DNA of 33,313 bases from contig NZ_NEUB01000119.1 in assembly GCF_002910825.1 (NCBI RefSeq), positions 1-33,313 on the forward strand, in the 5' to 3' direction. Source of the stretch: Streptomyces sp. SM1. Its GTDB lineage: Bacteria > Actinomycetota > Actinomycetes > Streptomycetales > Streptomycetaceae. Position 1 is the first letter of the stretch, and every line of letters begins with the position of its first letter. Position numbers and translations under genes: made by a program. Below are positions 13,853-19,000 of the stretch, piece by piece. The notes under the pieces were generated by a model, which saw nothing but the letters and a program-made list of their open reading frames with translations, was not told where the DNA came from and searched no databases.

Positions 13853-14587
13853 TCAGGCCGGTTGCCGGAGCCGGTCGAGTGCCGAGGGGGTGAGGATCCG
13901 GTCGGGGTGTCCCCGTCCCGCCAGCCGCCCCTCGCGGAGCAGGATGCAGGTGTCGGCCGACCGGGCGGCGTCCAGATCGTGTGTGGCGTGAACGACGGTC
14001 AAACCGTCGGCGGCCAGATCCGTCAGCAGTGTCGCCGTGCGTTCCCGGGCCTCGGGGTCCAGTCCGGTGGTCGGCTCGTCCAGCAGCAGGAGGTCCGACT
14101 CCTGGGCGAGCCCTTGCGCCGTCAGGGCGCGCTGCCGTTGTCCGCCGGAGAGTTCCCCCAGTTGCCGCGTGGCCAGGTCGGCGATGCCCAGACGGTCCAT
14201 GGCCGTGGCCACGGCGGCGTGGTCGCGGCTCGTCAGCCGGCGCCACGCTCCGCGGTCGCTCCATCGCCCCATCTGCACCGTCTGCCGGACCGTCAGCGGC
14301 AGCAGGCCGCCGACCGCGGTGCGCTGGGGGACGAACGCCGGCGGCCGGCCGCCGGCGCGATACAGCTCGCCCGCAGTGGGCCGGATCACACCGGCCAGCA
14401 CGCCGAGCAGCGTGGACTTCCCGCTGCCGTTCGGTCCGACGAGCGCCGTGATCGCCAACGCCGGTATGCCGACGTCGAGTTGATGGAGGACCGGTCGGCC
14501 GGCGTAGCCCGCGGACAGCCCGGCGACACGGATGCGGAACGTCGCGTCCTGGGGGGCGGGGGACGAGGAGGCGGTTTTATTGAACAT
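13853..14587 (-). CDS. aztA: zinc ABC transporter ATP-binding protein AztA
   Basis: The product has 244 residues and a complete ABC ATPase set: Walker A GPNGSGKST, Q-loop FVPQRT, signature LSGGQRQR, Walker B LLLLDEPTTGLD and the switch His in VVHATHD. It powers uptake through the divergent permease; zinc is inferred from the Zur-like box and the AztD-type neighbours. The best start is ATG 14587, because an in-frame ATG at 14596 falls inside the predicted -10 element. With TACAAT ending 7 bases before the ATG, the mRNA is probably leaderless. The frame stays open far upstream on this strand, but that extension overlaps aztB and is not credible. Confidence 0.9.
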   Translation of the reverse strand: MFNKTASSSPAPQDATFRIRVAGLSAGYAGRPVLHQLDVGIPALAITALVGPNGSGKSTLLGVLAGVIRPTAGELYRAGGRPPAFVPQRTAVGGLLPLTVRQTVQMGRWSDRGAWRRLTSRDHAAVATAMDRLGIADLATRQLGELSGGQRQRALTAQGLAQESDLLLLDEPTTGLDPEARERTATLLTDLAADGLTVVHATHDLDAARSADTCILLREGRLAGRGHPDRILTPSALDRLRQPA

Positions 14588-14595
14588 GATTGTCA
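14581..14595. promoter_or_regulatory. Zur-box-like operator between aztA and aztB
   Basis: TGAACATGATTGTCA matches 13 of 15 positions of the actinobacterial Zur consensus as I remember it (TGAAAATGATTTTCA). The sequence is an AT-rich island in an otherwise GC-rich locus and lies over the aztA start codon. Zinc-bound Zur on this site would block both divergent promoters. Confidence 0.75.
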
Positions 14596-14604
14596 TTGTA
14601 GTGT
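14595..14604. promoter_or_regulatory. overlapping divergent -10 elements for aztA and aztB
   Basis: On the minus strand TACAAT (14600-14595) lies 7 bases before the aztA ATG at 14587. On the plus strand TAGTGT (14599-14604) lies 8 bases before the aztB ATG at 14613. Both spacings fit transcription starting at or next to the start codon, so both genes are probably leaderless. No convincing -35 was seen in either direction. Confidence 0.5.
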
Positions 14605-14612
14605 GTGCCGCC

Positions 14613-15467
14613 ATGGAGTGGTTGACAGGCCCTTTCGAGGTGACTTTCGTGCAACGAGCCCTGTGGGGCGGGATGTTGGTGTCGGCGATCTGCGCCCTGG
14701 CGGGAACATGGGTGGTGCTCAGGGGGATGGCCTTCCTCGGCGACGCCATGTCCCACGGGCTGCTGCCCGGGGTCGCGCTGGCCGCACTGCTCGGCGGCAA
14801 CCTGCTGGTGGGGGCGTTGCTGAGCGCGGCCGTCATGACCGCCGGCGTCACCGTCCTCGGCCGTGCCCCGAGGCTGTCCCAGGACACCGGCATCGGCCTG
14901 CTCTTCGTGGGGATGCTCTCGCTCGGCGTCATCATCGTGTCGCGCTCGCAGTCCTTCGCGGTCGATCTGACCGGCTTCCTGTTCGGTGACGTACTGGCGG
15001 TCCGCGAACAGGACCTGATGCTGCTGGGTGCGGCTCTGGTGACGGCCCTCGTCGTCTCGGTCCTCGGCCATCGCGCCTTCCTGGCCCTGGCGTTCGACGC
15101 GCGCAAGGCACGGACTCTGGGCCTGCGCCCCCGCCTGGCCCACGCCCTGCTGCTCGGGCTGCTGGCGCTGGCCATCGTGGCGTCGTTCCACATCGTGGGG
15201 ACGCTGCTGGTACTGGGGCTGCTGATCGCCCCGCCGGCGGCCGCGCTGCCGTGGGCGCGGAGCGTGCGGGGCGTCATGGCGCTGGCCGCGCTGCTCGGCA
15301 TGACCGCCACGTTCTTCGGGCTGCTGCTCTCCTGGCATCTGAGCACCGCCGCCGGAGCGACCGTCTCGGCCCTGGCCGTGACCCTGTTCTTCCTCTCCCG
15401 CCTGGCATCCGCCATCCGCCACCGCCACGCACGCCCGGCCGGCTTCCGTCCGGCGGTCACCGACTGA
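14613..15467 (+). CDS. aztB: zinc ABC transporter permease AztB (ABC-3 family)
   Basis: The product has 284 residues from ATG 14613 (MEWLTGPFEVTFVQRALWGG), the usual opening of this permease group. It has about eight hydrophobic segments and the ABC-3 signature region GTWVVLRGMAFLGDAMSHGL near residues 35-54. The stretch ALAFDARKARTLGLRP is probably the cytoplasmic coupling loop that contacts AztA. ABC-3 permeases import Zn2+ or Mn2+; the operator and the neighbouring genes favour zinc. A longer frame from 14532 overlaps aztA and is rejected. The downstream lipoprotein gene starts 15 bases after the stop, so this is an operon. Confidence 0.9.
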   Translation: MEWLTGPFEVTFVQRALWGGMLVSAICALAGTWVVLRGMAFLGDAMSHGLLPGVALAALLGGNLLVGALLSAAVMTAGVTVLGRAPRLSQDTGIGLLFVGMLSLGVIIVSRSQSFAVDLTGFLFGDVLAVREQDLMLLGAALVTALVVSVLGHRAFLALAFDARKARTLGLRPRLAHALLLGLLALAIVASFHIVGTLLVLGLLIAPPAAALPWARSVRGVMALAALLGMTATFFGLLLSWHLSTAAGATVSALAVTLFFLSRLASAIRHRHARPAGFRPAVTD

Positions 15468-15482
15468 GAAGGACCTGAGGCG

Positions 15483-16733
15483 ATGTCCATGTTCGTCCGA
15501 AGAAACGTCACAGCCGCCGCTCCGGCCGCGCTGGTGGCACTCGTGCTGCTCACCGCCGGATGCGCCGGAGGAAGGCCCGACCCCGCCGCCGCGAAGCCGG
15601 GTTCAGCGACGTCCGCCCCTGAGCACGGCTACGTCGAGGGAGCGCGGGAGACAGCCGAGCAGCAGTCCCGGCTCCTGCTCAACGACCCCGCGACCGGAGA
15701 CACCCGGGTACTCGACCTGATCACCGGAAAGGCGCACGAGGTGCCGCCGGCGAAGGGCACCGCGGAACTCACCACGGACGGCAGATTCGGCTACTTCCAC
15801 ACCGCGGCCGGCACCCGTGTCCTCGACGCCGGTGCCTGGACGGTCGACCACGGCGACCACGTGCACTACTACCGAGCGGCGATACGCGACGTCGGCCGCA
15901 TACCCGCCGGCACCGGCGCCCGCGTCCGCAGCGACGCCGTCATGACCGCTGTGACCGGAGCGGACGGACGTGCCGTCACCTACCGCCGGACGGAACTGGA
16001 GAAGGGCCGCGTCGGCGCCTCCCGCACCCTGCCCGGAACCCGGGCGGGAGCGGTGGTCCCGTACGCCGGGCACCTGCTGGGCCTCACCGGCGACGGGCAG
16101 GGCGCGGCTGCCCGGCTCGCGGTACACGACCGTGCGGGCGGGCGCTCCACCGCCCCGCACGCCACCTGCGAGGACCCGATGGGCGACGCCGTCACCCGGC
16201 GCGGCGTCGTCTTCGGCTGCGCCGACGGCGCCCTGCTGGTCGGCGACGACGACGGACGTCTCACCGCCGAGCGGATCCCCTACGACGGTGACGTGCCCGC
16301 GGAGGAACGGGCGAGGTCCTTCCGCCACCGCGCGGGAAGCGACACCCTCACCGCGCCGGCCGGGGACCGGGCCGTATGGGTGCTGGACGTCGCGGAGCGG
16401 ACCTGGACCCGGGTGGAGACCGGTCCCGTCGTCGCGGCCAACACCGCCGGCGAGGGCTCCGCACTGCTCGTCCTGGAGACCGACGGGGCGCTGCACGGCT
16501 ACGACGTCGCCACCGGCAGGCGGATCGCCCGGACCGAGCCGCTCCTGGCCGGAGAACAGCGGCCGGCCACCGGCGGAAGAGGCCCCGTGATCGAGGTCGA
16601 CCGCAGCCGGGCCTACGTCAACGACCCCGAGGGCAGACGCGTGTACGAGATCGACTACAACGACGGCCTGCGCGTCGTCCGCACCTTCGCCCTGGACGTG
16701 AAGCCGGAACTGATGGCGGAGACCGGACGATGA
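15483..16733 (+). CDS. AztD-family beta-propeller lipoprotein, HGDHVHYY type
   Basis: The product has 416 residues. Signal peptide with lipobox LTAGC (Cys about 27), so it is anchored outside the membrane. The rest is repetitive beta-propeller sequence (RLLLNDPATGDTRVLDLITG, ALLVLETDGALHGYDVATGR, RAYVNDPEGRRVYEIDY). It is paralogous to the AztD gene at 17795: the Cys pair in TCEDPMGDAV...VFGCADGALL aligns with NCPGVHGEAA...AVGCEDGVLL there. It lacks that paralog's HHG and VHG histidines but has a VDHGDHVHYYR cluster after the second blade, a likely metal site. I infer a zinc chaperone or periplasmic zinc sensor working with AztC. Its stop overlaps the aztC start (ATGA). Confidence 0.8.
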   Translation: MSMFVRRNVTAAAPAALVALVLLTAGCAGGRPDPAAAKPGSATSAPEHGYVEGARETAEQQSRLLLNDPATGDTRVLDLITGKAHEVPPAKGTAELTTDGRFGYFHTAAGTRVLDAGAWTVDHGDHVHYYRAAIRDVGRIPAGTGARVRSDAVMTAVTGADGRAVTYRRTELEKGRVGASRTLPGTRAGAVVPYAGHLLGLTGDGQGAAARLAVHDRAGGRSTAPHATCEDPMGDAVTRRGVVFGCADGALLVGDDDGRLTAERIPYDGDVPAEERARSFRHRAGSDTLTAPAGDRAVWVLDVAERTWTRVETGPVVAANTAGEGSALLVLETDGALHGYDVATGRRIARTEPLLAGEQRPATGGRGPVIEVDRSRAYVNDPEGRRVYEIDYNDGLRVVRTFALDVKPELMAETGR

Positions 16734-17689
16734 CGACACCGAAGCGAACCGTGCTGCGGCTGCGCCGCCTGCTGTGGGCGCTGATCGCCCTCGCCTGCAC
16801 CGGCACGGCCACCGCCTGCGCCGGCGGTGACGACCGCCCCCGTGTCGTGGTGACGACCAACATCCTCGGCGACGTCACCCGCGAGATCGTCGGTGACGAG
16901 GCCGGCGTCACCGTCCTGATGAAGCCCGACGCCGACCCGCACTCCTTCGGCCTGTCGGCCCGGCAGGCCGCCGAGCTCGAGAACGCCGACCTGGTGGTCT
17001 TCAACGGGCTGGGCCTGGAGGAGAACGTGCTGCGACACGTGGAGGCCGCCGACGACGCCGGCGTCGCCACCGTCGAGGTCGGCAGGGCGGTCGACCCCCT
17101 CACCTACCGCGCACCGGCCGACGGAGGACCCGATGAGGCCGCCGGGCAGCCGGACCCGCACTTCTGGACCGACCCCGACCGCGTGCGCCTGGCCGCCGCC
17201 CTGATCGCCGACGAGGTGGTCGAGAACGTGGACGGCGTCGACGAGCGGACGGTCCGCAGCAACGCCGCACGCTACGACCGGCAACTCGTACGTCTCACCG
17301 CCTGGATGGAGAAGTCCTTCGACCGCATCCCCGAGGACGGGCGTGCCCTGGTCACCAACCACCACGTCTTCGGCTACCTCGCCGACCGCTTCGGCTTCCG
17401 GGTGATCGGCGCGGTCGTCCCCAGCGGCACCACCCTGGCGTCCCCCAGCTCCTCCGACCTGCGCTCGCTCACCCGGGCCATGCGCGAGGCCGGGGTGAGC
17501 ACGGTGTTCGCCGACTCCTCCCGGCCCACGCGGCTGGCCGACGTCCTGCGCGACGAACTGGGAGGCCGGGTCGAGATCGTCGAGCTGTACTCGGAATCGC
17601 TCACCGCACGGGGCGGGGGCGCCGACACCTATCTGCGGATGATGCGCGCCAACACCCTCGCCGTGACCGACGGCCTCACCGCCCACTGA
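16730..17689 (+). CDS. aztC: zinc ABC transporter substrate-binding lipoprotein AztC
   Basis: The product has 319 residues, starting at ATG 16730 inside the preceding stop (ATGA, translational coupling). It is a cluster A-I metal-binding protein (ZnuA/AztC type): VVVTTNILGDVTREI at the N-terminus, His71 in DADPHSF, His144 in PDPHFWTD and His211 in TNHHVFGY, matching the three His ligands of this family; the acidic fourth ligand is probably in the C-terminal lobe. It has no long His-rich loop, as expected for AztC, which receives zinc from AztD. The lipidation site is probably Cys23 or Cys30 (ALAC or ATAC), a weak lipobox. A frame that extends upstream to 16376 overlaps the propeller gene and is not used. 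Confidence 0.9.
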   Translation: MTTPKRTVLRLRRLLWALIALACTGTATACAGGDDRPRVVVTTNILGDVTREIVGDEAGVTVLMKPDADPHSFGLSARQAAELENADLVVFNGLGLEENVLRHVEAADDAGVATVEVGRAVDPLTYRAPADGGPDEAAGQPDPHFWTDPDRVRLAAALIADEVVENVDGVDERTVRSNAARYDRQLVRLTAWMEKSFDRIPEDGRALVTNHHVFGYLADRFGFRVIGAVVPSGTTLASPSSSDLRSLTRAMREAGVSTVFADSSRPTRLADVLRDELGGRVEIVELYSESLTARGGGADTYLRMMRANTLAVTDGLTAH

Positions 17690-17794: not shown

Positions 17795-19000
17795 GTGAGA
17801 AAGCAGATACGCACCACCAGAGCCGTCACGGCTACGGCCCTCGCCCTGGCCGTGTCCGCCGTCCTGACCGCCTGCGGGGGAGAGGGAGGCGCCGCGTCCG
17901 ACGCGAAGACGAAGACGACGCCGAGCGCCGCACCCGCCACCCAGGTGAAGAACCCGCTGGTCGCCACCTTCGACGGCGGCCTGTACATCCTGGACGGCGA
18001 AAGCCTCGAGATCGCCGAGACCATCGCACTGCCCGGATTCAACCGCGTCAATCCCGCCGGCGACGACACCCACGTCATCGTCTCCACCGACAGCGGCTTC
18101 CGAGTCCTCGACGCCGCCGGACAGTCCCTCACCGGCATCACCTATCCGGGGGCCAAGCCCGGCCACGTCGTCCGCCACGCCGGGAAGACCGTGCTCTTCA
18201 CCGACGGCACCGGTGAGGTCAACGTGTTCGACCCCGCCGACCTGAAGGGCGGAACGAAACCCGAAGGCCGCACCTACACCTCCGCCGAGGCACACCACGG
18301 CGTGGCGATCGAGCTCAGCAACGGCGAACTGCTCAGCACCCTCGGCACCGAGGAGAAGCGCACCGGCGCACTCGTACTGGACACGTACGGCAAGGAGATC
18401 ACGCGCAACGAGAACTGCCCCGGAGTGCACGGAGAAGCCGCCGCCGAGGGCGAGACGGTCGCCGTCGGCTGCGAGGACGGTGTCCTGCTCTACAAGGACG
18501 GCGAGTTCACCAAGGTCGACGCCCCCGACGCCTACGGCCGCATCGGCAACCAGGCCGGCAGCGACGCCTCCCCGGTGCTGCTCGGCGACTACAAGACCGA
18601 CCCCGACGCCGAACTCGAGCGCCCGACCCGCATCTCCCTCATCGACACCGCGACGGCGAAGCTGCGCCTGGTCGATCTGGGCACCAGCTACTCCTTCCGC
18701 TCACTCGGGCGAGGCCCCCACGGCGAGGCACTCGTCCTCGGCACCGACGGCACCCTCCATGTCATCGACCCCGGGACGGGCAAGGTCGAGAAGGAGATCC
18801 CCGTCGTCGGCGAATGGCGGGAACCCCTCGACTGGCAGCAGCCCCGGCCCACCCTGTTCGTCCGCGACCACACCGCGTACGTGTCCGAGCCGGGCAAGCG
18901 GAAGCTGCACGCCGTCGACATCGAGTCCGGAGAGAAGCTCACGTCGGTGACCCTGCCGAAGAGCACCAACGAACTCTCCGGCGTGGTGCCCGGCCACTGA
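17795..19000 (+). CDS. aztD: zinc metallochaperone AztD (beta-propeller lipoprotein)
   Basis: The product has 401 residues from GTG 17795 behind AAAGGA. Lipobox LTAC. Propeller repeats run throughout (GGLYILDGESLEIAETIALP, GTLHVIDPGTGKVEKEIPVV, KRKLHAVDIESGEKLTSVTL). Candidate zinc ligands are the AEAHHGVAIE pair and His in CPGVHGEA, with a conserved Cys pair (NENC and VGC). AztD proteins are extracytoplasmic zinc chaperones that pass Zn2+ to AztC. It lies 105 bases after aztC; no second Zur-like box was seen in that gap, so it is probably read from the aztB promoter. A hairpin follows the stop. Confidence 0.85.
   Translation: MRKQIRTTRAVTATALALAVSAVLTACGGEGGAASDAKTKTTPSAAPATQVKNPLVATFDGGLYILDGESLEIAETIALPGFNRVNPAGDDTHVIVSTDSGFRVLDAAGQSLTGITYPGAKPGHVVRHAGKTVLFTDGTGEVNVFDPADLKGGTKPEGRTYTSAEAHHGVAIELSNGELLSTLGTEEKRTGALVLDTYGKEITRNENCPGVHGEAAAEGETVAVGCEDGVLLYKDGEFTKVDAPDAYGRIGNQAGSDASPVLLGDYKTDPDAELERPTRISLIDTATAKLRLVDLGTSYSFRSLGRGPHGEALVLGTDGTLHVIDPGTGKVEKEIPVVGEWREPLDWQQPRPTLFVRDHTAYVSEPGKRKLHAVDIESGEKLTSVTLPKSTNELSGVVPGH

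Follow-up and report, generated by a model that had tools for sequence, protein, structure and literature searches.

In Corynebacterium glutamicum, the genes cg0042 and cg0043 (znuB2/znuC2) are transcribed divergently across a gap of only 29 bp (Schroder et al. 2010, PMC2823685). The transcription start sites of both genes were assigned to the A of the ATG, that of cg0043 being deduced bioinformatically according to the figure legend. A single 21-bp Zur motif can serve both genes, Zur was found to bind in the presence of zinc in gel shift assays, and both genes were upregulated in the zur mutant (PMC2823685). Doubly leaderless, Zur-controlled azt promoters have thus been known since the 2010 description of this C. 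glutamicum gene pair. Paracoccus denitrificans AztABCD is composed of the same four components as the importer described here, its aztA gene is likewise preceded by a Zur motif, and it is induced under zinc limitation; however, it is encoded by a single aztABCD operon, whereas in the locus described here aztA diverges from aztB-aztC-aztD (PMC5387054, PMC6689063). Zur boxes situated on the core promoter are also known from the znuA promoter of Streptomyces coelicolor, which differs in that it is read in one direction and has two boxes (PMC5472717, PMC6103462). For the same species, ChIP-chip yielded the Zur consensus tGaNNatSatNNtCa, and DNA protected by Zur at zitB measured 38 bp (PMC5472717).

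The aztA-aztB junction of Streptomyces sp. SM1

The analysed stretch of DNA, hereafter the window, comprises 33,313 nt from Streptomyces sp. SM1, the locus being situated on contig C934 of the 8.06-Mb genome. It includes aztA, encoding the ATPase of a zinc ABC transporter (13853-14587, minus strand; NF040873 AztA, 263.1 bits, cut-off 220), and in divergent orientation aztB, encoding the permease (14613-15467, plus strand; NF040871 AztB, 368.7 bits, cut-off 280). Further downstream on the plus strand are aztC for the zinc-binding protein (16727-17689; NF040870, 387.7 bits, cut-off 350) and aztD for the zinc metallochaperone (17795-19000; NF038015, 493.1 bits, cut-off 400), both presumed to form an operon with aztB. 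All four products scored above the curated NCBI cut-offs, which identifies the set as an AztABCD zinc importer and confirms the names aztA and aztB given in an earlier sequence-only reading. The AztB most similar to that of the window was found in Streptomyces sp. CHD11 (95% identical). Between aztB and aztC, an AztD-like degenerate gene was detected (15483-16733, plus strand; NF038015, 53.8 bits, cut-off 400), and a hypothetical protein is encoded at the same position in S. clavuligerus pSCL4 and in an S. anulatus plasmid. AztB matches were present in 18 Streptomyces plasmid records, including S. clavuligerus and S. anulatus plasmids, indicating that this zinc importer is carried on plasmids too.

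The predicted leaderless starts of aztA (ATG 14587-14585, minus strand, with the A at 14587) and aztB (ATG 14613, plus strand) are separated by the 25 bases 14588-14612, exactly as the sequence-only reading had it. Its proposal of a 15-bp Zur-like box also held: the predicted Zur operator TGAACATGATTGTCA at 14581-14595 does not deviate from any of the fixed positions of the S. coelicolor Zur consensus (PMC5472717). When the window was searched for this box with up to three mismatches, the site itself was found with 0 mismatches among four matches in total (shuffle mean 0.39), one of which was the same box on the other strand; the only two additional sites had three mismatches each, and no box-like site adjoined aztD. 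What had escaped that reading is that the aztA ATG (14585-14587) lies inside the box, of which it forms letters 5-7.

The predicted aztA -10 element TACAAT (14595-14600, minus strand) is located 7 nt upstream of the ATG, and the final nucleotides of this element and of the box form one base pair. The predicted aztB -10 element TAGTGT (14599-14604, plus strand) is located 8 nt upstream of the aztB ATG. As proposed before, these two opposed elements overlap, namely at TA 14599-14600, which is the sequence arrangement of a shared -10 bidirectional promoter. Box and both starts together occupy 35 bp (14581-14615) rather than the about 33 bp originally stated. Inspection by eye revealed no convincing -35 elements. 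Additional in-frame ATGs, previously overlooked, are present upstream of aztA (14599) and aztB (14586). The former overlaps the -10 element of aztA and the latter is upstream of the -10 element of aztB, so that neither would be contained in RNAs originating from these elements. Within the first 60 codons of aztA in the window, no in-frame ATG or GTG other than the start was found. S. coelicolor promoters have the -10 motif TANNNT, and 21.0% of the primary start sites in this species give rise to leaderless RNAs, defined by a 5'-UTR shorter than 9 nt (PMC4895711). Each half of the junction is therefore ordinary, and it is the combination that stands out.

Conservation of the compact arrangement in Streptomyces

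Related loci were represented by the best 80 of 153 matches, giving 81 loci together with the window, and aztA was divergent from aztB in all 80 fetched loci. Loci with the aztA ATG within the box were designated type I (71 of the 80 fetched loci; 72 of 81 including the window) and the other nine type II. Throughout the 72 type I loci, the gap between the two starts measured 22-25 bp, and the aztA ATG was preceded at a distance of 7 nt by TACAAT (65 loci) or TATAAT (7 loci). All 81 loci had the motif TAnnnT 6-8 nt upstream of the aztB start. If the RNAs start at the ATGs, type I transcription starts would be 23-26 bp apart, near the common 23-bp class of the shared -10 bidirectional promoters (PMC12825309). 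The overlap of the -10 elements is a further likeness to these promoters, which however were described in E. coli, in a study whose main text does not contain the word leaderless.

Comparison of 72 different 57-base type I stretches showed that 12 of the 15 box letters (1-8, 10, 11, 14 and 15) are invariant, as are the TT and the TA that follow the box, while the stretch deeper into aztA is variable. At the protein level, M1 and F2 of AztA were invariant in 72/72 type I loci and the subsequent residues varied. As the type II AztA proteins do not have M-F at the N-terminus, these two residues are apparently held constant by the box and not by the protein. The longest anti-Shine-Dalgarno match of type I aztA was 3 nt in 71 loci and 4 nt in one; for aztB it did not exceed 3 nt in 69 of 72. 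With a -10 element 6-8 nt from the start and little Shine-Dalgarno complementarity, both aztA and aztB thus have the sequence characteristics of leaderless genes. Codons 2-24 of type I aztA contained no in-frame ATG or GTG in 65 of 72 loci, and such codons were present in the remaining 7.

A 20-base core was found, by pattern match alone, in exactly one copy in each of 37 out of 295 Streptomyces genomes, compared to 0 of 295 for the reversed-pattern control. Together with the type I conservation, this single-copy occurrence rules out a chance origin. The feature at the aztA-aztB junction is real and conserved, and it is very probably functional.

The notion that such compression is rare in a GC-rich genome gained modest support only. 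It was favoured by the background of divergent gaps: by reading, 23 other divergent pairs in four stretches of two Streptomyces plasmids were separated by 83-1139 bp, values lengthened by incomplete gene tables. A strict pattern (CAT N7, overlapping -10s, N7 ATG), on the other hand, applied to 61 Streptomyces genomes, matched 13 distinct sites versus 8 for the reversed control, so that a general genome-wide excess of the overlapping -10 design was not evident and this idea was dropped. Four of the 13 sites were azt by position; the window, with its 8 nt on one side, does not fit the register of this pattern.

Probable assignment of the box to Zur

The same genome contains four further sites with zero mismatches to the published Zur consensus, and a match to the consensus alone consequently proves little. 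A scan allowing up to one mismatch returned 86 sites versus 14 in the control; it was discarded as too loose, the listed matches appearing codon-driven by eye. The genome also carries znuA, znuC and znuB in a cluster, and directly after it lies a FUR-family gene (PF01475, 112 bits). By its neighbourhood, this gene is probably zur, which would provide the regulator expected for a Zur regulon. Judging by the 38-bp footprint at zitB, Zur protection would be long enough to include both azt starts. The literature searched, mostly without subscription papers, contained no transcript or Zur-binding data for the azt locus of Streptomyces.

Two side observations were made in this genome. The ATG of znuA touches its Zur box, TGAAAATGAGTGTCATG, too (L158, G000:C841, 8169-8183), and a second box-like site, TGACAACGGTTTCCA, lies just 5' of it (L158). 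Elsewhere, two Zur-like boxes 45 bp apart (G000:C927:22516-22575; L082, L094) are flanked by an ATP-grasp/L-amino-acid-ligase-like gene on one side and a GNAT acetyltransferase gene on the other, and this is possibly a zinc-responsive small-molecule locus.

Type II relatives and a possible origin of the embedded start codon

In the nine type II loci, the box and the aztA -10 element hold the same position relative to each other as in type I. The type II aztA start, picked by eye, lies 32-44 nt after the -10 element, corresponding to a leader of roughly 25-37 nt, and is preceded by a Shine-Dalgarno match of 4-6 nt in eight of the nine loci, with only 3 nt in L073. Box position 5 is C in 72/72 type I and A in 9/9 type II loci; by reading, it is also A in 44 other divergent boxes, which had been picked with a pattern requiring A at this position. 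The C completes the triplet CAT, which reads as ATG on the aztA strand. The DNA between the box and the first conserved AztA motif measures 77-92 bp in type I (83 bp in 60 of 72 loci) versus 69-93 bp in type II. With this similar length, the N-terminal stretch of type I AztA takes the place of the type II leader.

In a quick tree built from 142 AztB rows (138 different; several long branches flagged elsewhere in the tree), a single branch (SH-aLRT 98) separated the 77 type I rows, 74 of them distinct, from all others, in agreement with one change. The simple reading of these sequence data would be one leadered-to-leaderless change that turned the operator into the start codon. Among 44 divergent loci not belonging to type I, a loose criterion identified an SD-like aztA start outside the box in only 29, which makes a leadered ancestor of type I likely without proving it.

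Divergent azt loci in other actinomycetes

A survey of 394 actinomycete genomes identified 336 with an AztB-like match, 47 of them over the cut-off. These 47 loci were read together with three just under the cut-off and with 12 of 30 from the g135 survey, which covered 121 genomes of one genus, taken to be Corynebacterium. Not counting the copy in the window itself, this resulted in 49 divergent loci and 12 same-strand loci, in which aztB follows aztA. A box with no more than two mismatches to TGANAANNNTTNTCA was present upstream of aztB in 47 of the 49 divergent loci and in none of the 12 same-strand loci. TAnnnT occurred 4-9 nt before aztB in 36 of the 49 divergent loci, a count in which the aztB start of L163 was mis-set, and also in 6 of the 12 same-strand loci; outside Streptomyces it is therefore a weak, non-discriminating sign. 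In six g135 loci with the aztA start at a gap of 29, TAnnnT was counted by eye six nt before this start. The g135 same-strand loci L165-L170 have TAnnnT 6-7 nt before the GTG of aztB although aztB follows aztA, and internal leaderless aztB starts are possible there.

Locus L163 combines the published C. glutamicum motif with the 29-bp gap. Its products scored 238 for AztA (cut-off 220) and 319 for AztB (cut-off 280), with AztC just under the cut-off (333 versus 350), and no AztD match was obtained at the threshold used in the short piece of a further gene. The window and cg0042/cg0043 have in common an orthologous divergent gene pair, as judged by the curated models in L163, a gap of less than 30 bp and one Zur motif. 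However, L163 has a centred box with one -10-like TATCAT in either half-site, each located 6 nt from its ATG. In Streptomyces type I, and hence in the window, the box is instead shifted onto aztA and contains its ATG, and the -10 elements overlap each other rather than being distributed over the two half-sites. The operator-embedded start codon and the different register are what is new in Streptomyces, as a tighter version of a known switch.

Alternative readings of the junction

Translation of aztA from the upstream in-frame ATG (14599-14597, minus strand), driven by a promoter further inside aztB, would mean that this gene is not leaderless. Such an ATG is present in frame 9 nt upstream of the aztA start in 72/72 type I loci, and PGAP sets the aztA start there in S. 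clavuligerus pSCL4 and the S. anulatus plasmid (L202, L203; gap 15). However, it overlaps the conserved TACAAT, which requires that another promoter be used, and the type II loci retain the -10 element in the same place relative to the box though their starts lie far downstream. We therefore regard an upstream start as improbable and the public aztA start in L202 and L203 as probably mis-set. Boxes of the Fur family are mutually similar, and this resemblance speaks for another member of the family, e.g. Fur or Nur, as the regulator acting at the junction. Recognition by such a regulator instead of Zur seems very improbable given that the S. coelicolor Zur consensus is matched throughout its fixed positions, that the C. 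glutamicum ortholog is bound by Zur (PMC2823685), and that the curated models identify the genes as zinc-importer genes.

The two promoters may also be less alike than assumed, with only one gene leaderless or with firing under different conditions, and with the box mainly controlling aztA. In support of this, many aztA genes beyond the type I clade look leadered while aztB often retains the short distance. Within type I, however, the distances of both -10 elements are narrow (7 nt for aztA and 6-8 nt for aztB), and the known Zur footprint exceeds the length of the gap (PMC5472717), so that we attach little weight to an unequal role of the two sides.

A proposed model: Zur control from a box that contains a start codon

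In line with the sequence-only reading, whose interpretation is supported by what can be judged from sequence, we favour a joint leaderless switch, and consider it likely from the sequence features that the predicted Zur operator at 14581-14595 also supplies the aztA start codon and that one zinc-bound Zur dimer would shut both aztA and aztB. RNA polymerase would start at each ATG or no more than about one base away from it, giving rise to leaderless RNAs, and because the -10 elements overlap it could be bound in only one of the two orientations at any moment. None of five bidirectional promoters examined in E. coli showed competition between the two sides at basal activity, but competition could occur when one side was strongly activated (PMC12825309). 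Under zinc sufficiency, Zur on the box, probably extending over both -10 elements and starts, would block polymerase both ways. When zinc is short, Zur would leave, and the ATPase (aztA) would be made together with the permease, the binding protein and the chaperone (aztB-aztC-aztD). With regard to its origin, replacement of A by C at position 5 of the box in one Streptomyces lineage may have created the start codon at leaderless distance, and the former leader and its Shine-Dalgarno sequence would then have turned into the variable N-terminal extension of AztA.

A more comprehensive scenario, for which we see the chances as evenly balanced, is a start-codon capture. The Zur box would have become the leaderless start of the very gene it represses in one Streptomyces clade, with the old leader converted into a protein extension, and Corynebacterium would have reached its doubly leaderless azt switch separately and in another register. 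The shared TA would force one-way firing and thereby couple the output of ATPase and permease.

Altogether, the repressor site, the promoter and the start codon apparently are one piece of DNA in this locus, and close relatives keep them separate. The locus and its relatives would allow direct tests of how a leadered gene turns leaderless and of what encoding a start codon costs an operator in binding. They would equally allow a test of whether two subunits of the same transporter are kept in balance by overlapping -10 elements.
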